A stretch of 64,000 bases of DNA from Lycium barbarum (taxonomy: Eukaryota > Streptophyta > Magnoliopsida > Solanales > Solanaceae): assembly GCF_019175385.1 (NCBI RefSeq), contig NC_083343.1, positions 49,250,457-49,314,456 of the forward strand, written 5' to 3'. Made by a program: the position numbers and the translations under genes. This document shows, one piece after another, positions 8,694-52,127 of this stretch (its first letter is position 1; every line of letters starts with the position of its first letter). The notes below the pieces were generated by a model, which had not been told where the DNA came from, ran no database searches, and worked only from the letters and a program-made list of their open reading frames with translations.

Positions 8694-8890
8694 TGAAACG
8701 TTTGGTATTAAAGCAATAGGTTCAAGTGTCTTAGGGAGTCTATGGTCTCGTGTCTAGTGGAGTTTCCTATAAATGGTTGACTACCAAGACATTTAGGATT
8801 GTCTCACCTCTTTCATACTCTAGATCATGTAATTAGTGCTATGCCTCCATGAATAATTCTAACTCATGGATATTACTCTTCTTTCAAAAA

Positions 8891-10051
8891 ATGTCTACAA
8901 AAATTATGTCAGTTACAAGCGGAAGGACTAGTACGGATGCTGCACTAGAAGTGGACTCTCAGACTCAGGCAATTGGCACCAGGGCTGAGGGACCTGCATC
9001 GAGCCAGATACCTCAAACTTCATCCCTACTGACTACTGAAAGGCGTACGAAGGTTTGTACTAAAATCACTCTGGTGTCCAGCACATCTGATATGGATGTT
9101 AGAGGAGCTATCCAGTTTCTAACCCAAATTGTTTCTACTCTAGCTCAATGTCAAGGAACGACTCCAAATACTAGTTCTCATAAGGGGTTGTCCAGTTCTA
9201 GAGGATGAAAGTTTATTCTTATGAACCCTCCAATCATAGGGTCCAATCCTAAGGAAGATCCGTAGAACATCATTGATGAGATTCAGAGGACTCTCCGAGT
9301 CATGCATGCTGCTGACACAAAAGTAGTTGAGTTTACTGCTTACTAGCTCAAGGATATTGCTATCATCTAATAAGAGTCATGGGAAGATTCCTAAGGGAAG
9401 AATGCATCTCCTGCAGTTTGGGACGAGTTTGCAGAGGCTTTTATTGATCACTTTCTGCCACTGCAGATGAGGGAGGGTAAGGCCTTAGAGTTCAAAAGGC
9501 TAAGAGAGAATGGCATGAGTGTGAATGAGTATTATCTTAAGTTTGTCTCATTAGCCAAGTATGTTGCGGATATGATTTCTACTATGAGAGACAGAGTTAG
9601 ACGATTTGTGATTGGTGTTGGACCCCACATGATTGGTGAGGCTAATATTGATACTTTGAATAAGGACATGACTATCACCAAGATTGTGGCTTTTGCCAAA
9701 TCTACAGAGGACAGGAAAAGGGATGATAGACTTAAAATGAGAAAGAGAGAGAAATCAAAAATTGAATTAAGTGTATAGGTAATATTAACCATGGAGGATC
9801 TCAAGGAAGTGGAGGCAGACCATTATTTAAAATGAGGTTATCAAGGCCTTTTCTATCCTCACCCAGTGTATCGTTTCGAGGTCCAGATATGATCAGAAGG
9901 GTAATGTCAGTAAGGAATGAGTTTCAGGGCAGCAAGATTTTATAGGCTAAAGAATTTTAGCACCCTATCTATAGCAAGCGTGGTAAGAGACACCCAGGGG
10001 AGTGTCGCATGGGTATGGATGTGTGTTATAGGGTGTGGAAAGCGATTTCAC
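8891..10051 (+). pseudogene. gag pseudogene of element C, 5' segment
   Basis: Translation shows a recognisable gypsy Gag: the stretch from about 9230 to 9700 contains IIDEIQRTLRVMHA, SPAVWDEFAEAFIDHFLP and VNEYYLKFVSLAKY, characteristic of the capsid-like domain. ATG at 8891 is chosen because it occupies the place of the gag ATG in A (a CTAAC branch-point word and pyrimidine-rich text precede it); the ATG at 8849 lies in the leader. Stops interrupt the frame near 9262 (TAG), near 9345 (TAG), near 9370 and at 9776-9778. At the 3' end the zinc knuckle begins (MDVCYRVWKA) and is cut by solo LTR G. Confidence 0.8.
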
Positions 10052-20208: not shown

Positions 20209-23200
20209 TGTTATATCCCGCATTTTGTGCAATCGGATGATTCAAGGCAATTGCGGGAGGACAACAAGCAAGGCCATATTTTATTTTGTTTGGCACATGA
20301 GTGCTTATGAAAAATCTAGAAGTGGAAATATGGAGAAAGACGAAGGGAAAAATTGGAAGTTGGAAAAATGTTTCATAAATTACAAGAACTAGTCAAAAAT
20401 ACAAAGTGGGCTTGAAAGTTTTTTTTTGGAAAATTTGAGGCCCAACCAGCCATAGGGCATGGGCTAGGCCCATGACTACTTAATTCATGATATTAAATAG
20501 GACGACTAAGTCATCTTTATCACAATAATCTCTAGAATTTTCAAGAAGAGGAGAACAAGAGAAAGAAGAGGAGAAGTTCTAGGGCCCTTCGGCCATAGAG
20601 GAATTCCCAAGAAACATTTGCAAAAATTCCTTCAAAAATCATTTTCTACCAAGTAAAGGGTGCTTAACAAGGTGGAGTTGTTGTTGGAGCAAGAAAGATT
20701 CATAATCATACAAGTTGCCAAGTTGTAGTCAAGTGAGAAGTTGAAGAAGAAAAGGTGAATTTTAATCTTGTTTTATGTGTTATACATGGTTTATATGTGT
20801 TGTAGTATGCTAAAATGGATGAAATTCATGAAAGACAGGGATATGGTATGTGGCCGTGCATGTGTATATATATGTAGGAATCATATTTCAATTATTTTGT
20901 TTAGTGTTTGGTTGTTGTTGTTGTAAATACTATATTGATAATGTAAGTTGAATGAATTTGGAGAGAAGGTAGTTGTGTGTGCATGATGAAGCCGTGAGTG
21001 TGTAATGTGTATGTGGCCGTGTATACATGATGTATAGTCGTGTATATTGGTGAGTTGTGCAAGAATAATGAGCGAGTTGTAATTAATATTTTAGTTGTTG
21101 TGTTGTAGATCTCATATTACAAATAAAGACTTGATAAGATTGGTGAAGTATTGGTAAGTGGAAGATTGTGTATATTGAAATATAATGTTTTTGCATGGAT
21201 AGCATGTAATGGTATTAGTATGATGTTGTTGGAATATATGTTATAAGGTTGCTATTGTACTCATTGAAGTCGGAAGGTTTTGAAGAAAGAGGTAAATTGA
21301 GATCATGTCTTGAATGAAATATGTGAATTGCTAGTGTGATTGTTGAGTTGTGTTAATAGTTTGGCCGGGTTTGAATTCCCGGGTTGTTGTTGATTGAAAA
21401 CTTGCTAAGTTGAATGTCGAGGATGGTATATTTACAGACGAAGTGCTGCCGAAATTTCGGTAGCCAAGTATTACCTTAAGATTTCAACTCTAAGTATCCT
21501 AATAAGAGTTTTGGTAAATATGACCAATTTGCAGATTTTGACGAAATTGCAACGTGAATTCGGAGTAGCAAAAGGAGCGGAAAGAGGTATGTAAGGCTTC
21601 ACCTTTCTTTCTATGGCATGTCTTAGACGTAATAAGTTGGGTACGAGCCTCGGGGACAACTCTATTACCCGGAATCCGCATCCAAAGTTTCCCTTTTTTT
21701 CCTTTAGTAGAATTGAACTAGAAAGTGCGCGAAATGTTAGAAAGACCTCCTAAACCCCTAGAACTTGTATAAATGGGACCCGACTACTATAAAACCCCTC
21801 ACAAGTAACGCCATGACAGGCAACATATGCAAATCGTATACGCTACCTCATTCGGGCCGAGGTGGGCCCGTTGCTCTCGGATTTTCCTTATAGTTCTGTT
21901 TGACTTACTTAAAGTTGAATCCAAAGAGGGCCTTTGATCCCGATCCCGTTACTAAATGATAAGTACTATAACTACTCTAACGAGAATACTTCTATGATGA
22001 CAATGATAACGGCGATTTTAGACAAGAGAATATGCCTATGATAAGTACGACCGGAACGATTCTACGGCTAAGATTTCTAAGCTAAGGATTCAATGTGAGT
22101 ATGAAAGTAATAAACTAGTTCTTGAACCTTATTTCCACCTCCTAGCTATGATGCTATTTCCTAAGGAATCCAAAGCCTATGAGTTGACGTCTATGATGCC
22201 ATGATTCCATTCTATGTTTACTGTTGATACTATTCTCCGTTGGTAGTCTTGCCTTAAAATACTTGTTGCTTCAAGGAGAGACAAAGCGACCACGATTGTT
22301 CCATAGTGTAATAGGAGGTCAACGACCTTACGTCACTCCGATGGCTAAATGATTTTTCTTTGGCTCTCTTGCGTGCTTATATGACATATGTATATAAGAT
22401 ATGTAAATGTATATAAGACACGTATATGTATATGATAAAAGATCCAGAGCGCTATAGACGCTGATATATGCACATGATACACGTATATGTATATGATGAA
22501 AGAGGCAGAGCGCTATAGACGCTGATATACGTACATGATATATGCATATGTATACGGGGAAGATGGAGATAAGGGCAGAGCGTTATATACGCATATCCAC
22601 CTGATCAGTTGGCATTACATGACATGATATCATCCCGGACGCGGGATGTGTATATTTATGGTTAAATGGATCGGCTGCCGACGCCTCGGCTACATGACAT
22701 GTTCTACTTTTATAGATATATATGAACAAGAAAATATTTTCAAGGGAAAGCTAAGCATGCATGGCATCTGCCCAAGGGCACTTATATGTACAGGTTATGT
22801 TTCTACCTCAGGACACGTGTTATAACTCTTTTATGTCAATATCCCTGTTTTATATTTTCCGTATATTACTATTCATGCCTTATATACTCGGTACACTATT
22901 CGTACTGACGTCCCTTCTTGTGGACGCTGCGTTTCATGCCGCGCAGGTCAGCAGACAGGCGGGTTTGGTTCTTAGGAGCTCTACCAGCAGCACTTGACAG
23001 CGCTCCAGTTGTTCCGGAGCCTCACTTCCTTGGTACTATCTTGTGTATATATATATTCGGGCACGGCAGTACCCGGCCCTTTCTATGTATATGTGTACTA
23101 TGTCTAGAGGCTCGTAGACAGATATGTATAGGTAGATGTCTTATATTTTGAATTGTTCGCGTCTCTGTATAATGTGACAGCAACGCTTACTAGTCTATGT

Positions 23201-23358
23201 TTATGATGACGCGGCTAATGTTAAAGCTTAGCAATGAAAAAAAAAAACGTATAGCACAGTTCCTACGGCCCGCTTAGAAGTAAAGGTAAAAATGATAGAT
23301 AAGGGGTGCTCGGTACATGTATCGGGTACTCGTCGCGGCCCCTAGTCGGGTCGTGACA
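20209..23358 (+). mobile_element. 5' LTR of E
   Basis: Starts TGTTATATCCCGC, ends GGGTCGTGACA. Upstream of the TATA-like TTAAATA (about 20494) is GGCCCAACCAGCCATAGGGC followed by ATGGGCTAGGCCCAT, the latter containing the inverted arms ATGGGC/GCCCAT. A splice donor AAAAG|GTGAAT is at 20754/20755 and a second AGAGGTATGTAAGG near 21585. Two 61-bp minisatellite units lie at 22444-22565, and the three-hairpin module at 22889-22947. Frames in the LTR (21471-21681, 22761-23151) recur in the 3' LTR because the LTR is duplicated and are not genes. Confidence 0.9.
22889..22947 (+). other. three-hairpin RNA module in E 5' LTR
   Basis: Stems GGTAC/GTACT, CGTCC/GGACG and CTGCG/CGCAG are all intact. In the 3' LTR (27850-27908) the third stem has a C-to-T change giving a G.U pair. 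Confidence 0.68.
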
Positions 23359-23362
23359 GAAG

Positions 23363-23374
23363 TGGTATCAGAGC
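23363..23374 (+). promoter_or_regulatory. PBS of E for initiator tRNA-Met
   Basis: TGGTATCAGAGC is complementary to the 3' end of plant initiator tRNA-Met and begins 4 bases after the LTR end, as in A and B. Confidence 0.93.
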
Positions 23375-23418
23375 AGTTCGGTCCTAGGGGTTTGTCTACG
23401 AGTCGTGTCCAGTAGAGT

Positions 23419-23458
23419 CTTGTTTATGGGTGTGTAGCGCGCCACACTTATAAACAGG
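23419..23458 (+). other. leader hairpin of E with GCGCGC loop
   Basis: A 16-bp stem (23419-23434 with 23443-23458, including three G.U pairs) closes an 8-nt loop TAGCGCGC whose last six bases are self-complementary. The corresponding hairpins in A and B have the same stem and a TTGTGCAC loop. It lies 44 nt after the PBS. This geometry resembles retroviral dimer-initiation hairpins. Confidence 0.7.
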
Positions 23459-23543
23459 AGGATGCAGGGCATTTAGGAAATATGACCTTCTTTGTCTTCT
23501 AGATCGTGCGATAGAGCTATGTTACCAGGCTTCCTTGTTCTTT

Positions 23544-23570: not shown

Positions 23571-24194
23571 ATGTCGATGAAGAGATCAGCCCCAGATAGT
23601 GGGCGCACCAGTAAGGCCCCTAGAGTATCTCCAGAGCCGAGCAAGAGGAGCCTCGGCTATTCGATTAAGTCAGATCCGTCAGAGGACCCAGCTACAATTC
23701 CTCCAGAGTTCCTGACTCCCAGAGCAGAGGATCCTGCGGAGGACAGCTATGATACAGATCCGTCGGAGGACCCCGCAACAATTCCTCCAGACTTTCTGAC
23801 CCCCAGAGCAGGGGATTCCACGGATGGTGACTATGATACAGATCCCTCAGAGGATTCGACGATGACTCCTCCAGAGCTTCTTACCTCCAGGGAGGAGGAT
23901 AGTTATGGCACAGACCCGTCAGAGCACTCTTCTGGGACGACGGAGGAGGAGGATTCCGGGGATATGCCAGTTGTACCTGTGATGGAGCACTATGCCAGTC
24001 CGGCCACCTCGGAGAGTGCTACGGATTACTCCTGTCCCTTGTCCTGGCCATCAGTGAACCAGGAATCGCCTGGTTATCTATACTCTTCCGAGTCGGATGC
24101 GAGAAATGACGAGAGTCAAACGAGCGGAGAGCAGACAGACGAGGATGGGGGGCATACTTCACATGGCAGCTCCCCGAACCAGGCTCGAGATTGA
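23571..24194 (+). CDS. 207-aa acidic S/P/D/E-rich repeat protein of non-autonomous element E, function unknown
   Basis: The ORF occupies the place where A and B carry gag. ATG 23571 is the first ATG after the acceptor-like CAG and corresponds to the gag ATG position. The N-terminus (residues 1-30) is basic and Ser/Pro-rich (KRSAP, KAPR, SKRS). From residue 35 the word DPSED starts imperfect repeats of 28, 28 and 24 residues (at 35, 63, 91 and 115) with cores TIPPEFLTPRA and TIPPDFLTPRA. The rest is acidic and Ser/Thr-rich, with no Cys knuckle, no DPGST, no RT motif, no signal peptide and no membrane segment. It is predicted disordered. The frame is open across all 207 codons although it lies in a heavily mutated neighbourhood, which suggests recent insertion or selection on the source copy. 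I do not recognise a family. It could be a captured host fragment, a highly altered gag start or an element-specific cofactor. Confidence 0.6.
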   Translation: MSMKRSAPDSGRTSKAPRVSPEPSKRSLGYSIKSDPSEDPATIPPEFLTPRAEDPAEDSYDTDPSEDPATIPPDFLTPRAGDSTDGDYDTDPSEDSTMTPPELLTSREEDSYGTDPSEHSSGTTEEEDSGDMPVVPVMEHYASPATSESATDYSCPLSWPSVNQESPGYLYSSESDARNDESQTSGEQTDEDGGHTSHGSSPNQARD

Positions 24195-25106: not shown

Positions 25107-28100
25107 TGTTATATCCCGCATTTTGTGCAATCGGATGATTCAAGGAAATTGCGGGAGGACAACAAGCAAGGCCATATTTTATTTTGTTTGGCACATGAGT
25201 GCTTATGAAAAATCTAGAAGTGGAAATATGGAGAAAGACGAAGGGCAAATTTGGAAGTTGGAAAAATGTTTCATAAATTACAAGAACTAGTCAAAAATAC
25301 AAAGTGGGCTTGAAAGTGTTTTTTTGGAAAATTTGAGGCCCAACCGGCCATAGGGCATGGGCTAGGCCCATGACTAATTAATTCATGATATTAAATAAGA
25401 TGACTAAGTCATCTTTATCACAATAATCTCTAGAATTTTCAAGAAGAGGAGAACAAGAGAAAGAAGAGGAGAAGTTCTAGGGCCCTTCTGCCATAGAGGA
25501 ATTCCCAAGAAAAATTTGCAAAAATTCCTTCAAAAATCATTTTCTACCAAGTAAAGGGTGCTTAACAAGGTAGAGTTGTTGTTGGAGCAAGAAATATTCA
25601 TAATCATACATGTTGCCAAGTTGTAGTCAAGTGAGAAGTTGAAGAAGAAAAGGTGAATTTTAATCTTGTTTTATGTGTTATACATGGTTTATATGTGTTG
25701 TAGTATGCTAAAATGGATGAAATTCATGAAAGAGAGGGATATGGTATGTGGCCGTGCATGTGTATATATATGTAGGAATCATATTTCAATTATTTTGTTT
25801 AGTGTTTGGTTGTTGTTGTTGTAAATACTATATTGATAATGGAAGTTGAATGAATTTGGAGAGAAGGTAGTTGTGTGTGCATGATGAAGCCGTGAGTGTG
25901 TAATGTGTATGTGGCCGTGTATACATGATCTATAGTCGTGTATATTGGTGAGTTGTGAAAGAATAATGAGCGAGTTGTAGTTAATATTTTAGTTGTTGTG
26001 TTGTAGATCTCATATTACAAATAAAGATTTGATAAGTTTGGTGAAGTATTGGTAAGTGGAAGATTGTGTATATTGAAAAATAATGTTTTTGCATGGATAG
26101 CATGTAATGGTATTAGTATGATGTTGTTGGAATATATGTTATAAGGTTGCTATTGTACTCATTGAAGTCGGAAGGTTTTGAAGAAAGTGGTAAATTGAGA
26201 TCATGTGTCTTGAATGGAATATGTGAATGGCTAGTGTGATTGTTGAGTTGTGTTAGTAGTTTGGCCGGGTTTGAATTCCCGGGTTGTTGTTGATTGAAAA
26301 CTTGCTAAGTTGAATGCCGAGGATGGTATATTTACAGAGGAAGTGCTGCCGAAATTTCGGTAGCCAAGTATTACCTTAAGATTTCAACTCTAAGTATCCT
26401 AATAAGAGTTTTGGTAAATATGACCAATTTGCTTATTTTGACGAAATTACAACGTGAATTCGGAGTAGCAAAAGGAGCGGAAAGAGGTATGTAAGGCTTC
26501 ACCTTTCTTTCTAGGGCATGTCTTAGACGTAATAAGTTGGGTACGAGCCTCGGGGACAACTCTATTCCCCGGAATCCGCATCCAAAGTTTCCCTTTTTTT
26601 CCTTCAATAGAATTGAACTAGAAAGTGCGCGAAATGTTAGAAAGACCTCCTAAACCCCTAGAACTTGTATAAATGGGACCCGACTACTATAAAACCCCTC
26701 ACAAGTAATGCCATGACAGGCAACATATGCAAATCGTATACGCTACCTCATTCGGGCCGAGGTGGGCCCGTTGCTCTCGGATTTTCCTTATAGTTCTGTT
26801 TGACTTACTTGAAGTTGAATCCAAAGAGGGCCTTTGATCCCGATCCCGTTACTAAATGATAAGTACTGTAACTACTCTAACGAGAATACTTCTATGATGA
26901 CAATGATAACGGCGATGTTAGACAAGAGAATATGCCTATGATAAGTACGACCGGAATGATTCTACGGCTAAGATTTCTAAGCTAAGGATTCAATATGAGT
27001 ATGAAAGTAATAAACTAGTTCTTGAACCTTATTTCCACCGCCTAGCTATGATGCTATTTCCTAAGGAATCCAAAGCCTATGAGTTGACGTCTATGATGCC
27101 ATGATTCCATTCTATGTTTACTGTTGATACTATTCTCCGTTGGTAGTCTCGCCTTAAAATACTTGTTCCTTCAAGGAGAGACAAAGCGACCACGATTGTT
27201 CCATAGTGTAATCGGAGGTCACTGACCTTACGTCACTCCGATGGCTACATGATTTTTCTTTGGCTCTCTCGCGTGCTTATATGACATATGTATATAAGAT
27301 ATGTAAATGTATATAAGACACGTATATGTATATGATAAAAGATCCAGAGCGCTATAGACGCTGATATATGCACATGATACACGTATATGTATATGATGAA
27401 AGAGCCAGAGCGCTATAGACGTTGATATATGCACATGATACACGTATATGTATATGATGAAAGAGCCAGAGCGCTATAGACGCTGATATACGTACATGAT
27501 ATATGCATATGTATACGGGGAAGATGGAGATAAGGGCAGAGCGTTATATACGCATATCCACATGATCAGTTGGCATTACATGACATGATATCGTCCCGGA
27601 CGCGGGATGTGTATATTTATGGTTAAATGGATCGGCTGCCGATGCCTCGGCAACATGACATGTTCTACTTTTATAGATATATATGAACAAGAAAATATTT
27701 TCAAGGGAAAGCTAAGCATGCATGGCATCTGCCCAAGGGCACTTATATGTACAGGTTATGTTTCTACCTCAGGACACGTGTTATAACTCTTTTATGTCAT
27801 TATCACTTTTTTATATTTTCCGTATATTACTATTCATGCCTTACATACTCGGTACACTATTCGTACTGACGTCCCTTCTTGTGGACGCTGTGTTTCATGC
27901 CGCGCAGGTCAGCGGACAGGCGGGTTTGGTTCTTAGGAGCTCTACCAGCAGCACTTGACAGCGCTCCAGTTGTTCCGGAGCCTCACTTCCTTGGTACTAT
28001 TTTGTGTATATATATATTCGGGCACGACAGTACTCGGCCCTTTCTATGTATATAGTACTATGTCTAGAGGCTCGTAGACAGATATGTACAGGTAGATGTC

Positions 28101-28317
28101 TTGTATTTTGAATTGTTCGCGTCTCTGTATAATGTGACAGCAACGCTTACTAGTCTATGTTTATGGTGACGCGGCTAATGTTAAAGCTCAGCAATGAAAA
28201 AAAAAACGTATAGCACAGTTCCTACGGCCCGCTGAGAAGTAAAGGTAAAAATGATAGATAAGGGGTGCTCGGTACAAGTATCGGGTACTCGTCGCGGCCC
28301 CTAGTCGGGTCATGACA
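25107..28317 (+). mobile_element. 3' LTR of E
   Basis: A full 3211-bp copy of the 5' LTR with scattered substitutions. It has three instead of two 61-bp minisatellite units (27344-27526). Ends GGGTCATGACA at 28317, followed by the TSD GAAAT. Confidence 0.92.
27344..27526 (+). repeat. 61-bp minisatellite, three units (two in the 5' LTR)
   Basis: Units start with CCAGAGCGCTATAGACG at 27344, 27405 and 27466. In the 5' LTR they start at 22444 and 22505. One unit exactly explains the LTR length difference. Confidence 0.9.
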
Positions 28318-28322
28318 GAAAT

Positions 28323-29310
28323 GATGTTAAGATATTCTTGGGCTCATTTGAGCACCTTCGCATATTCTTGTAAAGATTGCAGCATAAGGCGTGACAGAAA
28401 AAACTTAGAGTAAAATCTGAGTAAAGAGGCAATAGGATGGTTTGAATTAAAAGTAAAGAAACGACGCGAGATAATATGCCTAAAGTATTACAAGTTGGAT
28501 TAAGGGAAATAGCGAAAAGGTTTAAGCGAGACGAACAGAGCAAGCTGATTATTGGATGACAGTGAATTTATATGTCAAATAAAAAAAAATTCTTTTAGAA
28601 TTATACCAGCTAATGATAGTCAGATCACAGAGCAGCTATGTAAAGTTATAACATGAGGGAACTCCAGCGCTACTTGATAGCCAACTCTAAAGATCGAGAT
28701 TAAGAACTAAAAGCAAAGTGACAGTTAAAATCGTTTAATAAGAAAGTCGAGAAGTGATACATGATGGTGAAGATTCCAGAGTATGGACTGTAACACAGAG
28801 CAATGTATGGTTATTGAAGAAAAATAATGTTACACCAAGGGAAATTTCGTCTTATTCGTAGAGTCTGCGAAGGGTCTACAGGTTCCCAGAGGCATGAAAT
28901 ACTCCAGGGATTGTAAAGTCTAATAAATCGACGAGGGACGTCTATGCGTGAGAGGTAAGATGAGGTGAACGATACATCTTAAAGGAGTAAATATAGAAGA
29001 AGAAAGAGTCGAGTTAAGACTACGTGCACCAGGAGAGAGTAAGATTTCAGCGGAAGAGCTCGCAATACAATCGTTAACCAACTGCGAAATGAAAAGGAGA
29101 GTAAAGACAACGGCGTAGAATTATCACCTCGAGAGGCATGAACAAGAACAAATATTATGGGAATGGTTACTTAGAGATCTGGAATGCGTTACAATAAACT
29201 GAAGGGATCGACTAATGAAGGAGGCATGTGCAGGGCATAATTCAGTAAAAGAACGTTTAAGGAAGTATTGGAAGTGCAGAATTAGTTTAACATTCGAGGA
29301 CGAATGTTCC
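28323..29310 (+). other. Element D internal non-coding region, right part
   Basis: Continuation of D after E. A/G-rich; no gag-pol similarity. It ends in the hairpin AACATTCG-AGGA-CGAATGTT (29289-29308). Confidence 0.65.
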
Positions 29311-32838: not shown

Positions 32839-32843
32839 AAGGT

Positions 32844-34768
32844 TGTCACGACCCAACCCCGTAGGCCGTGACTAGTGCCCGATCTGGGCACCCGAACCCA
32901 TCTATCGAATATTATCTCAAATTCTATCAAACGACTTCTAGTGTATGGTAGAAGCCGACGAGGCTTTATTTCAAATTTAGATAATTTCCAGAAAACAATT
33001 TCGGCAGAGTTTCCTTTGTTTTACGGACTATCCAATATACCCTGCACGCAGAAAATACCAACAAAGGCCACACAGGGCTAACAAAGCAATGTATAAACAT
33101 ATGCGGACCGGCCGCCTCGGCGTATAGGATCTCCCAAACAACATATGCGAACCGGCCGCCTCGGCGTATGGGATCGCCCAAACGACATGTACACACATCA
33201 GTACAGAAAGACCCTAACCCACAGACATATCCACAGACCTCTAAACAGACTGACAGAACTATATGACGAGACAGGGCCCCGTCGTACCCCTGAATGACGT
33301 ACATATATACAATGACAGGAGACTGTACCAAAAATATAGGCCTCGGATAAGAGAGCGCCTCAGAAAAGCAGAGTATGACCCTAAGCAGGCGGATCAGCAA
33401 ACCTGTCGTCTGTACCTGCGCGGCATAAAAACGCAGCCCCCGAAGAAAGGGGGTCAGTACGAAATATGTACTGAATATGTAAAGCCTGAATTACAGAGAC
33501 AAAATCATAACTGGTACAGAACGTACAGAAAAAGTGAGTAGAAAATCCAGAGTATCAAATACATATTTTCAAAACATGCGGAGTGTGTACAGAAACATAT
33601 GTCATATCAAATCCGGCCCTGCCATGGGACTCGGCAAACAGAACGTGGCCACCCTCCCGACGCTGGTGCCATAACACAGAAGAATCAGAATAGGGGGATA
33701 ACCCCGTAACATAATATGTCATATCAGATGGCCATAGCAAATCATATCAGAACAAGCGTACATGGCACAGCATACTCCATAAACCCATGTACGCGTATAC
33801 CTACCCCTCACATCGAGGCACGGCGAACAATGCAAAGGATCACGCTTGACAACATATCCTGGCCCGGGCTCAGTGTGGGAAACATTGGGGCATCCACGAG
33901 TGGAGTAGTGAGAAACTAATGCAATTAAAATACCAAAAATGTTTTCATAGACTCGATGAGGCATATCAAGACAAACCGATCCAATGAAGTTGGACGGGAT
34001 CATAATAAATGAGTTTCGAGTATCATAATGAATTACAAAAGTATGACCTTTCTGAAATCGTTCCGAGTGTCAAAAGGAGTTATCAGACTTAATGGAATAT
34101 TCGAAACAATGTTTGTTAGGTAATTAGAATAGTAGTTCAAACATTTCTTTCAAAAACCGCTTGAAAAATAAGACTTAAGTACAATAAGGGCAAAACCGGG
34201 AATAATGGGCCCACCTCGGAACAAGCAAGGCGGTGGGCTCAAGTTACACATTTTAAGCTTATGGGGTCACCTACAAAGTTTCTACGGACGTTCTATAGCT
34301 TTCCAAGTAGTTTGGGGAAAGTTTGCATGATTACCAAGAATACAAACCAAAAAGGCTCAGTCTTACTGAAGGAAAAAGCGAGATTTTTAATTGCGGATTC
34401 CGATGGGCAGAAAGTCTTTCGAAGCCCGAATTTGATTCTAATACACTTAGGCATGCCAAAAGAAAGATCGGGGTAGCTTTACATACCTTTTGAGCTTTTT
34501 AAGCCTATCCAAGCTCACTCCCCGTTTCGTTGAAAATCTGTAAATGGTCACATTTACCAATTGTAAGTTATAGATGCTACGAATTCAATTCAACTCATAT
34601 TTGTCTACCGAAATTTCGGCAGCACTTCCCCTATACATATAGCACCCCCGAGAATTCAACTCGGTTCAAAACCATCAACAACAACCCAACAACAAACATC
34701 AACAACAACAACAATCACTATAACGCAACATAACTTATTTAGCCATCTTTTCAATACAATGTCATAAC
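32844..34768 (-). mobile_element. 3' LTR of B, distal part
   Basis: Starts on the plus strand with TGTCACGACCC and aligns with 52128-54047 of the 5' LTR. The three-hairpin module is at 33415-33473. ATAAC (34764-34768) is the TSD of A. Frames at 32875-34003 recur in the 5' LTR and are not genes. Confidence 0.9.
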
Positions 34769-35058
34769 TGTTATATCCCGTGTTTTCACACGTTGGAAGA
34801 ATTTGAAAACAATCTTGATTTGTGAGAAATAAGGTCAATTTGATATTTTGTTGAACATAGGAGTTATGTATGAAAGATTAGAGTCATGGAGGTGTGGGAC
34901 AAAGCTAAGGGCAAATTTGGAATTTTGGAAATTAGTTTCGGGAATTACAAAATGTGATTCACAAGTTATTGGGCTCAAATATTTAAGTGGAATTGAGGCC
35001 CAAAGAGGGGACCTTGGCCGGCCACTTTGGCTTGGTCCAAGCCCATTTTATGGGTCAT

Positions 35059-35096
35059 GTGCTTGGTCATGTGACCAAGCACTTCAATTATATACA
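35059..35096 (+). promoter_or_regulatory. palindrome and TATA box of LTR A
   Basis: GTGCTTGGTCA (35059-35069) and TGACCAAGCAC (35072-35082) are exact 11-bp inverted arms around two bases. TATATACAC follows within ~10 bp. The 3' LTR copy is at 43194-43217. Confidence 0.75.
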
Positions 35097-35335
35097 CATT
35101 AGAAGACTAGGATAAGATCAACAAGAAGATAAACAAGAGCAAAAATTAGAAGAAGAGAAGGAAGGTCTCGGGTTTGGGAGGAAAATTTGGCTACCAAAAA
35201 TATTGTTCAAAAAATTGTTCTCTTGTTGGATTTCCACTAATTCAAGGTCCCTTTGTAACTTGGTATAGTTGGTTTGGAGGGAGAAGCTTTAGATTCATCA
35301 AACTGATCATATCTCCAAGTGAAGAAGACTTGAGG

Positions 35336-35348
35336 AAAAGGTAAGAAT
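35336..35348 (+). promoter_or_regulatory. putative splice donor in LTR A
   Basis: AAAAG|GTAAGAA matches the plant 5' splice consensus. With the acceptor at 37901 it would give a 2561-nt intron and a 5' UTR of roughly 230 nt. Confidence 0.5.
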
Positions 35349-37150
35349 TTCTCCCTTATCTTTGTGTTATTAAGTCTTGTTTGTGTTGTAGTATATAGAA
35401 ATGTGTTGATTGTATGGAAAAATGGAAATTTGTGAAGCGGGTTTGGAATATGGCTTGTAGCCGTGTGTATGTATTGGTGGTATAGCCACAATGTGTTGAA
35501 TTCATGTTATATTCTCGTTGTGGTTGTGATGAAATGCATATTGGAATAGGAAGTTGAATGATTTAGTTGAAGTTGACAAAAAAGGCTTTTGGCGGTGTGG
35601 TATGTTGGATTTGGGATGGAAATGAATTAAGTTGTTTAGTATGTTAGTGTGTTATTGGGATGGTTGCAATGTAAATGAAGTTAGAATGATATAAGTTTGT
35701 ATTGAATTGGAATGTAGGAACCTATGTCGTTTTAGTATGATTTTTCCGACATTAAGAAAATGAAGTTGTTTAGTTGCTAATTGTGATGATCTTGATTGTT
35801 AATGAATGTGAAATCATTGATATCAGTTTGAAAGTTTGGGTTAGAATGAAGGTTATGTCAACTTGTTAGAAAGATGACTAGTTGAAGGATATTTGTGTTT
35901 TTAATGTTCGTTGTTGATGTTGATGTTGTCGTTTGGGTTGTGGTTGATGGTTTCTAACCGAGTTGAATTCTCGGGGGTGCTATATGTATAGGGGAAGTGC
36001 TGCCGAAATTTTCGGTAGACAAATATGCATTAAGTTGAAATCATGGCATCCATAACTCACAACTGGTAAATGTGACCATTTGCAGATTTTTGACGAAACG
36101 GGAAGTGAGCTTGGATAGACTCAAAAAGCTCAAAAGGTATGTAAAGCTAACCCGATCCTTCTTTTGGCATGCCTAAGTGTATTAGAATCGAATTCGAGCC
36201 TCGAAAGGCTTCCTGCCCCTCGGAATCCGCAATTGAAAATCTCGCTTTTTCCTTCAGTAAGATTGAGCCCATTTGGTGTGCTTTCCCTGAAATTATGCAA
36301 ACTTTCTCTAAATTACTTGTAAAGCTATAGAATGTCCGTAGAACCTTTTTAGGTGACCCCATAAGCTTAAAAGGGCATAATTTGAGCCCACCGCCTTGTT
36401 TGTCCCGAGGTGGGCCCGCTATTCCTGGTTTTTCCCTTAATGTACTTAAGTCTTCTTTTCGAGCAGTTCTTAAAAGAAACGTTTTGACTACTATTCTAAT
36501 TACCTAACAAACATTGTTTTAAATATTCCATTGAGTCCGATAAATTGTTTTGACACTCGGAACGATCTCAGAAAGGTTATACTTCTGTAATCCATTATGA
36601 TATCCGAAACTCGTTTATTATGTTCCCGTTCGACTTCATTGGATCGGTTTGTCTTTGATATACCTCATCGAGTCTATTAAAACATTTATGATATTTTAAT
36701 TGCATTAGTCTCTCACTACTCCATTCGTGGATGCCCCAATGTTTCCCACACTGAGCCCGGGCCAGGATATGTTGTGAAGCGTGATCCTTTGCATTGTTCG
36801 CCGTGCCTCGATGTGAGGGGGAAGGTATACGCGTACATGGGTTTGTGGAGTATGTTGTGCCATGTACGCTTGTTCTGATATGATTTACTATGGCCATCTG
36901 ATATGACATATTATGTTACGGGGTTATGCCCCTATTCTGATTCTTCTGTGTTGTGGCACCAGCGTCGGGAGGGTGGCCACGTTCTGTCTGCCGAGTCCCT
37001 TGGCAGCGGCCGGATTTGATATGACATATGTTTCTGTACACACTCCGCATGTTTTGAAAATATATATCTGATACTTTGTATTTTCTGGTTACTTTCTGTA
37101 CGTTCTATACCAGTTATGATTTTGTTTCTGCAACTCAGGCTTTATATATT

Positions 37151-37209
37151 CAGTACATATTTCATACTGACCCCCTTTCCTCTGGGGCTGCGTTTTCATG
37201 CCGCGCAGG
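37151..37209 (+). other. three-hairpin RNA module in A 5' LTR
   Basis: CAGTA/TACTG, CCCC/GGGG and CTGCG/CGCAG. In the 3' LTR (45286-45344) the first stem is a full CAGTAC/GTACTG and the second a full CCCCC/GGGGG. Confidence 0.68.
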
Positions 37210-37704
37210 TACTGACGACAGGTTTGCCGATCCGTCTATCTAGGATATCTTTTCCACCATTTGGAGCGCTCTTATATTCAGAGCCATCTTTTGGTACAGT
37301 CTGTCACTTCTATATATGTATATTCTCGTTCATGAGTACGGCGGGGCCCTGTCCCGCCATATGATTCTGTTGATCTGTTTAGAGGTCTGTAGACATGTTT
37401 GTGGGTTGGGATCTTTCTGTACAGCTGTGTGTATATGTTGTGTTTGGGCGATCCTATTCGCCGCGACGGCCGGTCCGCATATATTTAAATGTTACTCTGT
37501 TGGCCCTGTGTGGCCTTTGTTGGTATTTTCTGCGTGCAGGGTATATGGGATAGTCCGTAAAACAAAGGAAACTCTGCCGAAATTTTTCTGGAAATTATCT
37601 AAATTGGAAATAAAGCCTTGTCGGCTTCTGCTATATACTAGAATGTGTTTGAGTGCCCAGATCGGGCACTAGTCACGGCCTACGGGGTTGGGTCGTGACA
37701 AAAT

Positions 37705-37716
37705 TGGTATCAGAGC
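37705..37716 (+). promoter_or_regulatory. PBS of A for initiator tRNA-Met
   Basis: TGGTATCAGAGC, 4 bases after the LTR end. Confidence 0.95.
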
Positions 37717-37757
37717 GGTTCGTCCTCGGAATGTCTACAGACCGTGTCTAGTAGAGT

Positions 37758-37797
37758 CTTGTTTATCGGTGTGTTGTGCACCACACCTATAAACAGG
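37758..37797 (+). other. leader hairpin of A with GTGCAC loop
   Basis: A 16-position stem (37758-37773 with 37782-37797, one C.T mismatch and one G.U pair) closes the 8-nt loop TTGTGCAC, which ends in the self-complementary hexamer GTGCAC. It starts 41 nt after the PBS. See the finding on dimerisation. Confidence 0.7.
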
Positions 37798-37878
37798 AGG
37801 CTACAGGGCATTTAGGATACTACCCTTCTTTCTGTCTTAGATCGTGCGATAGAGCTGTGTTATCAGGATGATTCCTCC

Positions 37879-37901
37879 CTAACGAATTGTTACATTTGCA
37901 G
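37879..37901 (+). promoter_or_regulatory. putative branch point and splice acceptor before gag of A
   Basis: CTAAC (37879-37883), a T-rich stretch and TTTGCAG ending at 37901, two bases before the gag ATG. B has CTAAT and TTTGCAG at the same place. Confidence 0.6.
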
Positions 37902-37903
37902 TT

Positions 37904-40900
37904 ATGCCTCCAAAAAAGGCGACAGCGGCCCAAAAGGCCAAGGCAGCAGCTGTGGGAGAGACTAGTCGGGCCCAGAGGGTTACCAGGGCCCATGCTCATA
38001 TTGCTCCTGATGTTTTTCCCCCGGCAGAGGGCTCTTCCACACCGCCACATGTAGAGGCGATTGGAGCAGCAGCAGCTGCAGGTCGAGGAGCGGCTCCACC
38101 GCCAGCTCCCGCAGTTCCAGTACTTCAGCCTCCAGCTCCACGGCCAGGGACTGAGGATCAGACTATGAGAGAGGCAGTCCAGCTATTGACCAGACTTGTG
38201 GCAGGACAGGTTCAGGGGCACGGATTGGGAGGTGACCGAGCATATAGGCGTGACAGTTCGAGAGCTCGTGAGTTCTTGACTTGTGGCCCTCCAGAGTTCT
38301 TCGGGACAAAGCCCGAGGAGGATCCTGAGGAGTTTATCAGGAAGATGCGGCGCACCTTACATTTGATTAATTCTTCTGCGACAGAGTCAGTCACATTGGC
38401 TTCGTACCGGTTGTATGATGTAGCGGCTAATTGGAACGAGTCATGGGAGTTATCCAGAGGCGACGGCGCTCTCCCAGCAGTTTGGGATGATTTTTCTCAG
38501 GCTTTTCTTAGCCATTTTCTGCCTCCGGAGCTACGGCGGGCCAAGGCTGACAGATTCTTATTGCTGAGACAGAGGGGTCGCAGTGTTCGAGAGTACAGTA
38601 TGGAGTTCGACTCATTGGCCCGATACGCACCTGCTGTGGTAGCTACTATGGCTGACAGGATGCACAGGTACATTATGGGGCTGGACCGTTATTTTGTCGA
38701 CAGCTGTTTGGTATTGGCTGCTCAGCCCGACATGGATATTGCCCGGATTCAGGCGCACACCCAGGGCATGGAGGACCGGCATAGGGAGCGTCAGCCTGAT
38801 AGGAGTCAGGATCGGAGACAGCCCAAGAGGGCCAGATCGTCCGGGTATTCTGGAGATTTTCGGGGCAGACAGCCTCAGCAGCAGCAGCAGCCTAGCAGAC
38901 ATCTATCCCAGCCGGCACAGAGCACACCTCCACAGCCGACAGGTCGCAGGTTTGATAGCCCAGGGTATTCAGGAGCAGGTCAGAGCTCCAGGGCTTCAGG
39001 TTCGCGGACAGACAGGGGTTCTGGTCAGACGAGGCCACCTAGGCCTCAGTGTTCTTATTGTGGCAGATATCATCCAGGAGAGTGCTACAGAGCCACCGGT
39101 GCATGTTTTTCTTGTGGCCGTCAGGGCCATTCTGTGAGAGATTGCCCGTATAAGGGTAGTTCGGGTGGTGCAGCGCAGCCTACCGGGTCAGCCGCCGGGT
39201 CTTCATCTTCATCAGGGGCTATGCACCCTACGGGGCCAGGTACTTCAGCACCAGCGGGTCGCGGCAGAGGCCGTGGTGGAGCTTCTGGTACTAGCGGTCC
39301 TTCGAACCGCATTTATGCTCTGTCCAGCCGCCAGGATCAGGAGGCATCGCCTAATGTCATTACAGGTACATTATTGGTTTTCTCTCGGTCTGTGTATGCA
39401 TTGATTGATCCAGGTTCGACTTTTTCATATATTTCGCCTCTGGTTGCTAGTAAAATTGGTATAACGTCTGAACCTATAGAGCCGTTTGAGTTAGCCACAC
39501 CGATTGGGGACTTTATTGTAGCAAAACAGGTATATAAAAACTGTTCTGTAATTGTATGTGGCCGTGACACTAAGGCAGATCTGGTGGAGTTAGATATGGT
39601 CGAGTTCGATGTTATTATGGGAATGGACTGGCTAGCCTCCTGTTATGCTAATGTTGACTGCCAAAATAAGGTAGTTCGTTTCCAGTTTCCCGGGGAGCCA
39701 GTTATAGAATGGGTCGGTAATACAACATCGCCGAAAGGTAAGTTTATTTCATACCTTAAGGCGAAGAAAATGATCAGAAAGGGTTATTTTTATCATCTGG
39801 TTCGGGTACAAGACTTGACAGCAGAAATGCCGACTCTTCAGTCAGTTCCCGTGGTTAATGAATTTCCGGATGTATTCCCAGATGAGCTTCCAGGCCTTCC
39901 TCCGGAGCGGGAGATAGATTTTACTATTGATTTGCTTCCAAATACTCAACTGATATCTATTGCCCCGTACAGAATGGCACCGGCAGAATTGAAAGAACTG
40001 AAAGAGCAGTTGAAGGATCTGTTAGAAAAAGGCTTCATCAGGCCCAGTACTTCGCCTTGGGGAGCCCCGGTATTATTTGTGCGTAAGAAAGACGGGTCGC
40101 TGCGTATGTGTATTGATTATCGGCAGCTGAATAAGGTAACTATAAAGAATAAATACCCCCTCCCCAGAATTGATGACTTGTTTGATCAGTTGCAGGGCGC
40201 CAAATATTTTTCGAAGATAGATCTTCGGTCAGGTTATCATCAGGTACGGGTACGAGAGGCTGATATTCCTAAGACAGCATTCCGGACCAGATATGGGCAT
40301 TATGAATTCAGAGTTATGTCTTTTGGGCTGACTAATGCTCCTGCGGTATTCATGGATTTAATGAACCGGGTATTCAGGCCGTTCTTAGACATGTTCGTAA
40401 TTGTATTTGTCGATGATATCCTGGTTTATTCTCGGTCCGAGGCAGAGCATGCAGATCATCTGAGAGCGGTACTTGGGGTACTTCGGCATCGGAAATTATA
40501 TGCAAAATTTTCTAAATGTGAATTCTGGCTGGCTTCAGTGGCATTCCTGGGGCATATTATTGCAGCTGATGGTGTCCGGGTGGATACACAGAAGATTGAG
40601 GCCGTGAAAAATTGGCCCAGACCCACGACGCCCACAGAGGTACGTATTTTCCTGGGGTTAGCAGGCTATTACAGAAGATTTGTGGAAAAGTTTGCTTCGA
40701 TTTCAGCGCCTTTGACAAGGCTAACTCAGAAGGGAGCCAAGTTCCAGTGGACTGATGCTTGTGAATGAAGCTTCCAGTAGCTGAAAGAGAAGCTGACTAC
40801 AGCCCCAGTTCTGACTCTTCCAGAGGGACCCGATGGATATGTTATTTATTGTGACGCTTCTGGCGTGGGATTGGGCTGTGTATTGATGCAGCACGGCAGA

Positions 40901-42793
40901 GTTATAGCTTATGCTTCTCGGCAATTGAAAAAGCATGAAAAGAATTATCCTACTCACGATCTGGAGCTTGCAGCGGTGATCCATGCCCTGAAGATATGGA
41001 GACATTATTTATATGGCGTTCATCTTGATATCTATACAGATCATAAGAGTCTCCAGTATATTTTCAAGCAGAAAGAGCTTAATTTGCGGCAGCAGAGGTG
41101 GCTGGAGCTCCTGAAAGACTATGATGTGGATATTCTGTATCATCCGGGCAAGGCTAATGTTGTTGCAGATGCGCTTAGCCGGAAATCTATGGGCAGCTTG
41201 GCAGATTTACAGCCAGACAGGAGAGAGATAGTGCGTGACATTCATCAGTTGGCTAATCTTGGGGTTCGTCTGGCCGATTCTGGAGGTACACGGATTTCTG
41301 TCCGAGGGGTTTCTGAATCATCTATTAAGGAAGATATCAAGCGGTATCAATATGAAGATCCTGTTTTGGCTCGATACAGAGACACAGCCTATGATAAGGA
41401 GAAGACTCCGTTCGAGTTCACTCCGGACGGGACTTTATTAGTCAGGGGCAGGTTGTGTGTACCTGATATTGCAGGCCTTCGGCAGCAGGTTATGAGTGAG
41501 GCACATTATGCTCGCTATTCGGTCCATCCTGGGTCTACGAAGATGTACCATGATCTTAGATGCCTATACTGGTGGGATGGCATGAAACGGGATATCGCAG
41601 AGTTCGTCGCCCAGTGTCCCAATTGTCAACAGGTCAAAATTGAACATCAGAAACCGGGTGGACTGTTGCAAGAAATGGAAATTCCGACATGGAAGTGGGA
41701 GATCATTAATATGGACTTCATTACAGGTTTGCCTCGCACTCCACGGAAGTATGATTCCATCTGGGTTATTGTTGATAGGCTGACAAAATCAGCCCATTTT
41801 CTCCCCGTCAGAACTACTTACTCCGCTGAGTATTATGCCAGGCTTTATATTAAAGAAATTGTGCGACTTCATGGAGTTCCTATATCTATTATCACTGACA
41901 GAGGTGCTCAGTTCACAGCGAACTTCTGGAGATCTTTTCAGGAAGGATTAGGGACTCAGCTGAGCCTGAGCACAGCTTTTCATCCTCAGAGTGACGGACA
42001 GGCCGAGCGCACTATCCAGACGCTTGAAGATATGTTGCGGGCCTGTGTTATTGATTTCAGAGGTAGCTGGGAGGATCACTTGCCATTGATTGAATTTTCT
42101 TATAATAACAGCTACCATTCCAGCATCCAGATGGCTCCGTACGAGGCTTTATATGGTAGGAAATGCAGGTCACCTATCAGCTGGTTTGATATTGGCGAGA
42201 CAGAGTTAATTGGCCCAGATATGATCCAGCAGGCCGTTGATAAGGTGAAACTTATTCGGGAGCGGCTATTGGCAGCCCAGAGTCGACAGAAATCATACGC
42301 TGATAAACGACGTCGTCCTTTGGAATTCCAGGTTGGTGGTTGGGTATTTCTGAAGGCATCGCCTATGAAAGGCGTGATGCGGTTCGGCAGAAAGGGTAAG
42401 CTCAGTCCGCGTTATATTGGGCCATATCAGATTGTTAGAAAAATTGGAAATGTCGCCTATGAGTTAAATCTGCCATCTGATTTGGAGGCGGTGCATCCGG
42501 TATTCCATGTATCTATGCTCCGCAAATGCATTGGTGATCCCTCCAGAATATTTCCTGCGGATGATATTCAGGTGACGGAGCAGTTATCTTATGAGGAGCA
42601 GCCCGTAGCTATTTTGGACCGCCAGGTAAGAAAGCTCCGAAACAAAGATGTAGCCTCTGTTAAGGTGCTGTGGCGGAATAACAATAGGGAAGAAATGACC
42701 TGGGAGGCCGAAGAGGAAATGAAGAAGAAGTATCCTCATTTGTTCCCTACGCCCGCAGGTAATCTTGAATCTTTGTTTAATTCCATTCAATAA
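37904..42793 (+). pseudogene. gag-pol polyprotein of element A, one frame with two premature stops
   Basis: A single frame of 1629 codons (plus its terminal stop) encodes the retrotransposon polyprotein. It is broken by TGA at 40766-40768 and TAG at 40778-40780, between RT and RNase H. Domains by residue: N-terminal A/P-rich tail; Gag capsid-like region about 90-290 ([17 protein letters not shown]); CCHC knuckle C401-C404-H409-C414; protease with DPGST at 502-506; RT with IDYRQLNK and VDD around 836-838; RNase H starting near D984; integrase zinc finger H1201, H1208, C1238, C1241; DD35E triad D1271, D1332, E1368; and a C-terminal chromodomain about 1573-1617 ending KYPHLF. Chromodomains of this group direct integration to methylated heterochromatin. 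ATG 37904 follows the acceptor-like CAG and the MPPKK start is shared with B. TGA is a C-to-T change relative to B, and TAG a T-to-A change. No frameshift was seen, so this copy is nearly intact but not functional as read. Confidence 0.93.
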
Positions 42794-42867
42794 CGAATGT
42801 GTGTCATATGTGCCATCTATAAACAGACACTCCCCCGGAGTATTCTCAGACCCTATAATATTAATTT

Positions 42868-42903
42868 AACATTCGGGGACGAATGTTCTAAAGGGGGGGA
42901 GGA
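42868..42903 (+). promoter_or_regulatory. PPT and adjacent hairpin of A
   Basis: AACATTCG-GGGA-CGAATGTT (42868-42887) has an 8-bp perfect stem with a GNRA-type loop. The polypurine tract AAAGGGGGGGAGGA (42890-42903) directly precedes the 3' LTR. Confidence 0.92.
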
Positions 42904-45835
42904 TGTTATATCCCGTGTTTTCACACATTGGAAAAATTTGAAAACAATCTTGATTTGTGAGAAATAAGGTCAATTTGATATTTTGTTGAACATAGGAGTT
43001 ATGTATGAAAGATTAGAGTCATGGAGGTGTGGGACAAAGCTAAGGGCAAATTTGGAATTTTGGAAATTAGTTTCGGGAATTAAAAAATGTGATTCACAAG
43101 TTATTGGGCTCAAATATTTAAGTGGAATTGAGGCCCAAAGAGGGGACCTTGGCCGGCCACTTTGGCTTGGTCCAAGCCCATTTTATGGGTCATGTGCTTG
43201 GTCATGTGACCAAGCACTTCAATTATATACACATTAGAAGACTAGGATAAGATCAACAAGAAGATAAACAAGAGCAAAAATTAGAAGAAGAGAAGGAAGG
43301 TCTCGGGTTTGGGAGGAAAGTTTGGCTACCAAAAATATTGTTCTAAAAATTGTTCTCTTGTTGGATTTCCACTAATTCAAGGTCCCTTTGTAACTTGGTA
43401 TAGTTGGTTTGGAGGGAGAAGCTTTAGATTCATCAAAGTGATCATATCTTCAAGTGAAGAATACTTGAGGAAAAGGTAAGAATTTCTCCCTTATCTTTGT
43501 GTTATTAAGTCTTGTTTGTGTTGTAGTATATAGAAATGTGTTGATTGTATGGAAAAATGAAAGTTTGTGAAGCGGGTTTGGAATATGGCTTGTAGCCGTG
43601 TGTATGTATAGGTAGTATAGCCACAATGTGTTGAATTCATGTTATATTCCAGTTGTGGTTGTGATGAAATGCATATTGGAATAGGAAGTTGAATGATTTA
43701 GTTGAAGTTGACAAAAAAGGCTTTTGGCGGTGTGGTATGTTGGATTTGGGATGGAAATGAATTAAGTTGTTTAGTATGTTAGTGTGTTATTGTGATGGTT
43801 GCAATGTAAATGAAGTTAGAATGATATAAGTTTGTATTGAATTGGAATGTAGGAACCTATGTCGTTTTAGTATGATTTTTCCGACATTAAGAAAATGAAG
43901 TTTTTTAGTTGCTAATTGTGATGATCTTGATTGTTAATGAATGTGAAATCATTGATATCAGTTTGAAAGTTTGGGTTAGAATGAAGGTTATGTCAACTTG
44001 TTAGAAAGATGACTAGTTGAAGGATATTTGTGTTTTTAATGTTCGTTGTTGATGTTGATGTTGTCGTTTGGGTTGTGGTTGATGGTTTCTAACCGAGTTG
44101 AATTCTCGGGGGTGCTATATGTATAGGGGAAGTGCTGCCGAAATTTTCGGTAGACAAATATGCATTAAGTTGAAATCATGGCATCCATAACTCACAACTT
44201 GTAAATGTGACCATTTGCAGATTTTTGACGAAACGGGAAGTGAGCTTGGATAGACTCAAAAAGCTCAAAAGGTATGTAAAGCTAACCCGATCCTTCTTTT
44301 GGCATGCCTAAGTGTATTAGAATCGAATTCGAGCCTCGAAATACTTCCTGCCCCTCGGAATCGGCAATTGAAAATCTCACTTTTTCCTTCAGTAAGATTG
44401 AGCCCATTTTGTGTGCTTTCCCTGAAATTATGCAAACTTTCTCTAAATTACTTGGAAAGCTATAGAATGTCCGTAGAACCTTTTTAGGGGACCACATAAG
44501 CTTAAAAGGGCATAATTTGAGCCCGCCGCCTTGTTTGTCCCGAGGTGGGCCCGCTATTCCTGGTTTTTCCCTTAATGTACTTAAGTCTTCTTTTCGAGCA
44601 GTTCTTAAAAGAAACGTTTTGACTACTATTCTAATTACCTAACAAACATTGTTTTAAATATTCCATTGAGTCCGACAAATTGTTTTGACACTCGGAACGA
44701 TTTCAGAAAGGTTATACTTCTGTAATCCATTATGATATCCGAAACTCGTTTATTATGTTCCCGTTCGACTTCATTGGATCGGTTTGTCTTTGATATGCCT
44801 CATCGAGTCTATTAAAACATTTATGATATTTTAATTGCATTAGTCTCTCACTACTCCATTCGTGGATGCCCCAATGTTTCCCACACTGAGCCCGGGCCAG
44901 GATATGTTGTCAAGCGTGATCCTTTGCATTGTTCGCCGTGCCACGATGTGAGGGGGCAGGTATACGCGTACATGGGTTTGTGGAGTATGCTGTGCGATGT
45001 ACGCTTGTTCTGATATGATTTACTATGGTCATCTAATATGGCATATTATGTTACGGGGTTATGCCCCTATTCTGATTCTTCTGTGTTGTGGCACCAGCGT
45101 CGGGAGGGTGGCCACGTTCTGTCTGCCGAGTTCCTTGGCAGGGGATGGATTTGATATGACATATGTTTTTGTACACACTCCGCATGTTTTGAAAATATAT
45201 ATCTGATACTTTGTATTTTCTGGTTACTTTCTGTACGTTCTATACCAGTTATGATTTTGTTTCTGCAACTCAGGCTTTACATATTCAGTACATATTTCGT
45301 ACTGACCCCCTTTCCTCGGGGGCTGCGTTTTCATGCCGCGCAGGTACTGACGACAGGTTTGCCGATCCGTCTGTCTAGGATATCTTTTCCGCCATTTGGA
45401 GCGCTCTTTTATTCAGAGCCATCTTTTGGTACAGTCTGTCACTTCTATATATGTATATTCTCGTTCATGGGTACGGCGGGGCCCTGTCCCGCCATATGAT
45501 TCTGTTGGTCTGTTTAGAGGTCTGTAGACATGTTTGTGGGTTGGGATCTTTCTGTACAGCTGTGTGTATATGTTGTGTTTGGGCGATCCCATTCGCCGCG
45601 GCGGTCGGTCCGCATATATTTAAATGTTACTTTGTTGGCCCTGTGTGGCCTTTGTTGGTATTTTCTGCGTGCAGGGTATATGGGATAGTCCGTAAAACAA
45701 AGGAAACTCTGCCGAAATTTTTCTGGAAATTATCTAAATTGGAAATAAAGCCTTGTCGGCTTCTACTATATACTAGAATGTGTTTGAGTGCCCAGATCGG
45801 GCACTAGTCACGGCCTACGGGGTTGGGTCGTGACA
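42904..45835 (+). mobile_element. 3' LTR of A
   Basis: Same length as the 5' LTR (2932 bp), about 55 substitutions and no net indel by my reading. Duplicate frames such as 42983-43237 mirror those of the 5' LTR. Confidence 0.95.
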
Positions 45836-52123: not shown

Positions 52124-52127
52124 CTTT

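Follow-up and report, generated by a model that had tools for sequence, protein, structure and literature searches.

To our knowledge, little is known about how plant LTR retrotransposons choose the RNA that is packaged. In retroviruses, the sequence of events is established: two genomic RNAs kiss through hairpin loops, the contact may extend into a longer duplex, Gag binds, and the RNAs are packaged. The two common loop types of HIV-1 are GCGCGC and GUGCAC; in the 9-nt HIV-1 loop, purines flank the palindrome on either side. The HIV-1 leader hairpin SL1 carries a loop palindrome above an internal loop ('loop B') (PMC516450). For yeast Ty3, six palindromes are described, with three each in the 5' UTR and the GAG ORF. 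The last, PAL6 (CUGCAG, nt 391-396), is 6 nt long and lies towards the apex of a short hairpin close to the 5' end of the RNA; its deletion abolishes dimerization in vitro (PMC11381356). For Ty1, palindromes at the 5' end of the RNA have been proposed to start dimerization (PMC4974528, PMC5454406). Barley BARE2, which is unable to make Gag, is said to keep the dimerization and packaging signals and is packaged in BARE1 particles (PMC3735527), and the fungal GalEa copia elements possess a Conserved Hairpin Site, a conserved leader hairpin with a palindrome (PMC5445492).

Such dimer signals are already known in retroviruses, Ty1 and Ty3, and have been named for barley BARE; among the titles and abstract openings of the open-access literature that our searches found, none concerned such a signal in a plant Ty3/gypsy element. 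The new findings are that covarying palindromes occur as a natural series within a single genome and that autonomous and non-autonomous families share them. Loop-loop dimerization, known from retroviruses and yeast Ty1 and Ty3, is suggested to operate in plant chromoviruses as well.

The window, that is, the whole 64,000-nt stretch of the Lycium barbarum genome analyzed here, contains the LTR retrotransposons denoted E, A and B, with the following features.

20209-23364, plus strand: 5' LTR of E, with BLAST-aligned ends (3' LTR at 25107-28323, 95.6% identical)
23363-23374, plus strand: PBS of E, TGGTATCAGAGC, by sequence match
23411-23478, plus strand: conserved leader block of E, AGTAGAGTC ... 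CATTTAGGA, from the genome pattern and alignment
23419-23458, plus strand: hairpin of E, loop TAGCGCGC, from sequence and fold energy (z -4.92)
23437-23442, plus strand: loop palindrome GCGCGC of E, the same hexamer as in 49 of 98 sampled copies
23571-24194, plus strand: acidic 207-aa ORF of E, with no Pfam match, the sole ORF of at least 200 aa in E
34769-37701, plus strand: 5' LTR of A, by BLAST (3' LTR at 42904-45836, 98.1% identical)
37705-37716, plus strand: PBS of A, TGGTATCAGAGC, by sequence match
37758-37797, plus strand: hairpin of A, loop TTGTGCAC, from sequence and fold energy
37776-37781, plus strand: loop palindrome GTGCAC of A, from sequence
37904-40768, plus strand: gag-protease-RT ORF of A (Retrotrans_gag, RVP_2, RVT_1)
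40865-42793, plus strand: RNase H-integrase-chromodomain ORF of A, by Pfam domain matches
45836-47095 plus 32843-34768, minus strand: 3' LTR of B, split by A, by BLAST
52031-52070, minus strand: hairpin of B, loop TTGTGCAC, from sequence and fold energy
52047-52052, minus strand: loop palindrome GTGCAC of B, from sequence
52112-52123, minus strand: PBS of B, TGGTATCAGAGC, by sequence match
52127-55308, minus strand: 5' LTR of B, by BLAST

E, with LTRs of 3.2 kb and about 1.7 kb between them, has the organization of a non-autonomous LTR retrotransposon, with LTRs and PBS and without gag or pol. A shows the chromovirus order of gag, protease, RT, RNase H, integrase and C-terminal chromodomain in two ORFs; the chromodomain scores 26.5 bits (cut-off 25.1), and the integrase core (rve) 29.2, under the cut-off of 32.6. 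B is 86-88% identical to A at the DNA level and 94% over one RT piece, and the putative Tekay/Del label given to both in an earlier, sequence-only reading of the window fits the domain order. A (34769-45836) sits within the 3' LTR of B (region 32843-47095) and is therefore the younger insertion. We take the PBS TGGTATCAGAGC to be complementary to the initiator tRNA-Met. The 207-aa protein of E is repeat-rich and has relatives of about 52-80% identity in other elements with either loop type. Elsewhere in the window, the minus strand of 57397-62631 holds three related stretches spaced 1.1-3.4 kb apart, with LTR-end/PBS-like junctions at 60842 and 61929, the stretch at 57.4 kb having no clear PBS.

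The three 40-nt hairpins lie where the sequence-only reading had placed them, 44 nt after the PBS in E and 41 nt in both A and B. Each consists of a 16+16 stem and an 8-nt loop; as had also been noted, self-complementarity covers the final six bases of every loop, and GCGCGC and GTGCAC differ exactly at the partner positions 2 and 5. The accompanying statement that stem differences are G.U or otherwise tolerated needs correcting: at stem position 10, E has G.U and both A and B have a C.U mismatch. In the predicted fold of 68 nt, a 17th pair (U-A) closes the stem in A and B, and beneath it a 2x2 internal loop of purines leads to a 4-bp lower stem, GTAG/CTAC, which is weaker in the E copy (absent from the 68-nt fold, three pairs in a 190-nt fold) and also lies outside the consensus fold of 34 leaders. 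Each hairpin has a better fold energy than 200 of 200 dinucleotide shuffles (z -4.92 for E, -4.07 and -4.04 for the other two). A scan of 20000-55000 against Rfam gave no family at the gathering score. By themselves, three window copies would be weak evidence. A degenerate fourth leader (8703-8900) is flanked by similar sequences (GTGTCTAGTGGAGT, CATTTAGGA) and has a PBS-like site at 8703; the hairpin is missing from it (22 of 200 shuffles fold equally well, z -1.24).

As in HIV-1 SL1, the Lycium leader hairpins have a loop palindrome with an internal loop below. They differ in that the Lycium loop is 8 nt long, with two unpaired bases on the 5' side and none on the 3' side, and in that several loop palindromes coexist in the Lycium genome. 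The resemblance is one of kind, not of descent, and we claim no homology. Ty3 is likewise a Ty3/gypsy element with a 6-nt palindrome in an apical hairpin, but the sequence is another, and the Ty3 report describes an experiment on one element, whereas the evidence for the Lycium leaders is comparative only. Ty1 is a Ty1/copia element with three PAL sites and a pseudoknot nearby. BARE1 and BARE2 are plant LTR retrotransposons too, but of the Ty1/copia superfamily; in the GalEa elements, the palindrome is one arm of the stem, and there is no PBS.

The 1.67-Gb source genome was searched with the pattern AGTAGAGTC N{38,62} GGGCATTTAGGA, in which the flanks alone are fixed. This search yielded 11,890 flank-defined leaders, and the reversed-pattern control yielded 0. 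The first 100 places listed were taken for alignment, and every one lies within 6.6-30.0 Mb of contig C1 (99 rows aligned, 87 distinct); the overall scope is this one genome, with samples consisting mostly of first-listed places on one contig. The tabulation of loop hexamers that the sequence-only reading had proposed came out in its favor: among the 100 listed places, 72 of 98 copies have a palindromic hexamer at one fixed position of the loop (one aligned row is gapped there), and the best other 6-column window of the alignment is palindromic in at most 29 of 99. The sampled hexamers include GCGCGC (49 copies), GTGCAC (18), GCATGC (2), GCCGGC (2) and GACGTC (1), and 21 of the 26 non-palindromic ones are one base away from a palindrome. 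Such non-palindromic copies are expected of dead elements and may also reflect relaxed constraint in some lineages. Over the 87 distinct rows, 1712 of 1782 stem cells are paired; for several of these pairs, the search pattern itself dictates the 5' base. A PBS (3 or fewer mismatches) lies upstream of the leader in all examined loci except L027, at a distance of 33-39 nt from the conserved block wherever it was found, except for 27 nt in L049. The axis of the palindrome is offset by one base from that of the hairpin (column pairs sum to 57 and 55).

Between families, the loop palindrome is kept while its letters change, from GCGCGC to GTGCAC, GCCGGC, GACGTC, GAGCTC and perhaps GCATGC. In leaders with GACGTC or GAGCTC, most of the stem sequence differs as well, with the pairing restored. 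A whole-genome search with the flank pattern and three non-T bases required inside the 5' arm found 25 divergent-stem leaders (control, 0) with the same 16/8/16 plan, in which, for example, CTTGAGGAATGGTACG pairs with CGTACCCATCCTCGAG. The hexamer is palindromic in 13 of these (GACGTC in 10, GAGCTC in 2, AACGTT in 1) and non-palindromic in 12; other windows are also palindromic, in 8 of 25 rows at three places, as shared ancestry allows in such a set.

Covariation was assessed on 34 hand-picked distinct rows, 23 from the divergent-stem search, 2 further ones with divergent stems and 9 with the common stem. The shuffle statistics given here ignore relatedness, and the slid controls keep it but favor a structure that was itself derived from the aligned rows. 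At the three loop pairs, 93.1% of cells hold standard pairs vs 64.3% in shuffles, and the covariation score of the loop pairs is 0.705 vs 0.213, reached by 0 of 500 shuffles (slid controls, 0.04-0.17); for the whole structure, 88.9% of cells are paired vs 78.5%, with a score of 0.382 vs 0.201, again reached by 0 of 500 (slid controls, 0.08-0.15). On two of the five measures, those that the program describes as least inflated by relatedness, the loop pairs are not extreme (129 of 500 shuffles do as well for both-side changes and 25 of 500 for pair types), and the corresponding values for the whole structure are 2 of 500 and 12 of 500. RNAalifold predicts 15 pairs in the 34 leaders, 10 of them with both-side changes. 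The kissing-loop hairpin with a covarying loop palindrome, first proposed from the window elements, is thus upheld by at least five recurrent palindromes and by re-paired stems.

For a total of 74 loci and window elements, the DNA downstream of the leader was compared with the gag of A and the ORF of E; the loci are a non-random sample, taken for their similarity to E, by their place in the list or individually. The suggestion that loop types divide autonomous from non-autonomous RNA is contradicted: both GCGCGC and GTGCAC occur with and without gag. GCGCGC is preceded by TA in 22 gag-bearing elements and by TT in 9, and GCGCGC leaders also occur on three E-type elements (E, L013, L029); GTGCAC leaders are found on 10 gag-bearing elements and on two elements with an E-type ORF (L016, L018). 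L018 is a gag-less relative of E with GTGCAC and a 3' LTR, and the stretches fetched for it contain no gag or pol match. L016 was rejected as a clean gag-less GTGCAC element because pol pieces lie just downstream, which leaves L018 as the one element that carries the claim. In a gag tree of 50 rows and 171 columns, built by a quick method with 25 of 47 forks weak and with the loop labels of five of L024, L031, L037, L043, L034 and L063 set by hand from the sequence, the 10 GTGCAC rows all group in a single clade (support 99), and GCATGC turns up at two positions.

The leader of E is 98-99% identical over 151 nt to those of the gag-bearing L008-L012 and L014. With these 151 nt as the query, 39 other places at 97-99% were found among the 40 scored of 2,258 candidates; seven such places were taken as loci, of which six have gag matches and one, L013, has an E-type ORF. 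Further places with an E-like leader had gag matches in 14 of 14 checked. Given near-identical leaders on gag-bearing elements, E appears matched to a helper that shares its loop type rather than to A or B. The regions between the LTRs of E and A are alike in just two stretches, namely the leader, as far as 23529, and some 107 nt of the 3' end; the leader stretch including the LTR end spans 211 nt at 80.6% identity, and the 3'-end stretch, at 79%, reaches into the 3' LTR. That E and A share the leader alone was rejected, as a lenient threshold gives LTR stretches at about 70-79% along with the 3' ends of about 107 nt.

The leader also occurs on elements without a long ORF. L061 and four relatives, with AA-GCGCGC or decayed forms, have no ORF longer than 96 aa in the sequence examined. 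Identity to L061 across the LTR end, PBS and leader is 88% over 175 nt for E and 82% for A, and the LTR side of L061 resembles other repeats in the window; downstream of the leader, the two members compared (L061, over 2.9 kb, and L022) have nothing in common with the window. L045, with a GCCGGC loop and LTRs 95.2% identical over 1.9 kb, has no ORF longer than 105 aa; its leader is 87% identical to that of E over 113 nt and 82% to that of A over 121 nt, and, among the matches listed, its LTR partly matches the A and B LTRs at 67-69%. A leader shared across different interiors would look like a cis-acting replication signal.

From the observed structure, position and copy number of the hairpin, the covariation of its stem and loop palindrome, and the leader common to different interiors, we infer that the leader RNA of these plant Ty3/gypsy chromoviruses probably carries a dimer-initiation hairpin, which would act by kissing, followed by packaging by Gag. 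The stem of about 17 pairs would display the 8-nt loop with its six self-complementary last bases, through which two genomic RNAs of equal loop type would kiss. The kissing dimer may then open into a longer duplex, given that the entire hairpin is an inverted repeat, and Gag would bind the dimer and the adjoining conserved leader and take both RNAs into virus-like particles. Because its axis is offset from that of the stem, the palindrome lies outside the stem symmetry and cannot pair within one loop, but only in trans; pairing with a second molecule would be the plain reason for its conservation. Under the main alternative, the hairpin is a Gag-binding or packaging, reverse-transcription or translation element read as a folded monomer, with an incidental palindrome. 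The most constant features are indeed the stem shape and the flanks (the flanks partly by search design), and a leader common to gag-less families fits any cis signal, but a monomer gives no reason for loop self-complementarity to persist through double changes, with varying letters and constant symmetry, and we consider this explanation improbable.

The kinds of base change in the loop bear on another alternative, in which the palindromes arose without selection, through CpG decay of an ancestral GCGCGC or through templated quasi-palindrome correction during reverse transcription. GTGCAC and GCATGC are double-deamination products of GCGCGC, reachable by two CpG deaminations, so these switches weigh less than transversions, and many of the non-palindromic copies are single-step transition variants. 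GCCGGC, GACGTC and GAGCTC, however, require transversions. Within the common stem, C at hexamer position 3 with C or G at position 4 gave 2,787 genome matches, and among 100 listed of these, 96 are C-G (86 exactly GCCGGC) and 4 are C-C, whereas the G-G center gave 57 matches genome-wide, 0 of them palindromic. The central palindromic double transversion thus constitutes a large family, with thousands of copies, and each single transversion is at background level. A or G at position 2 with a GC center gave 116 matches, 2 of 100 listed being palindromic (GGGCCC); lone position-2 changes are scattered copies that founded no large families. Moreover, GTGCAC is common to one gag clade and is therefore inherited rather than single-copy decay, and correction of the stem would not create a palindrome whose axis differs from that of the stem. 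Mere decay was rejected on the strength of the transversion families and the GTGCAC clade, and a purely mutational origin is very unlikely. A DNA-level signal, either a methylation target or a dyad-symmetric site bound by a protein, is scarcely credible: sites of this kind typically contain palindromes and inverted repeats, and the strand test on rare stem variants (25 G.U vs 17 A.C, p 0.28) is not significant, but with several hexamers and re-paired stems there is no DNA word that stays constant, 3 of 15 stem pairs most often have G.U (179 G.U vs 17 A.C cells over all pairs), which breaks DNA symmetry, and the PBS-to-block distance is nearly fixed (33-39 nt, except 27 in L049).

An extension of the kissing-loop model, which we regard as possible but rather doubtful, is that the loop hexamer serves as a self-recognition code. 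Poorly matching palindromes (GCGCGC, GTGCAC, GCCGGC, GACGTC and GAGCTC) would then form RNA-dimer compatibility groups that limit cross-packaging and recombination, and non-autonomous families would carry the code of their helper. One genome offers thousands of natural variants of the candidate dimer signal, including matched loop changes, so that both the kissing model and the pairing of helpers with non-autonomous elements are directly testable with natural sequences alone.

Outside the source genome, DNA patterns and protein queries detected no related loci in viral contigs, and the DNA pattern had no match in genome contigs. An RT query of the genome contigs gave six loci, five of them short contigs that would represent plant contamination. 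L001-L005 are filed as bacterial (Labilibacter, Mycobacterium, Robertmurraya and two MAGs), carry a chromovirus-like RT with 67-83% identity and are probably contamination of this kind. Of the six RT loci, only L001 yielded a PBS and leader; its hairpin next to the PBS is a different one, with a non-palindromic loop, and the device is thus not universal in the wider clade. The leader DNA had no match in plasmids, and phages gave no match; three plasmid records match the RT, all at less than 60% identity. In one of these, H1, a Wolbachia endosymbiont plasmid record (NZ_CP087956.1), the RT is 48% identical to that of A and perhaps belongs to a retrotransposon of the insect host.

Within the source genome, GCCGGC leaders recur mostly at intervals of 5.1-5.7 kb (also 7.4 and 11.4 kb), as if in tandem arrays; such spaced leaders are found at G000 C1:25236279-25264327, 53645896-53656450 and 53979121-53991654.
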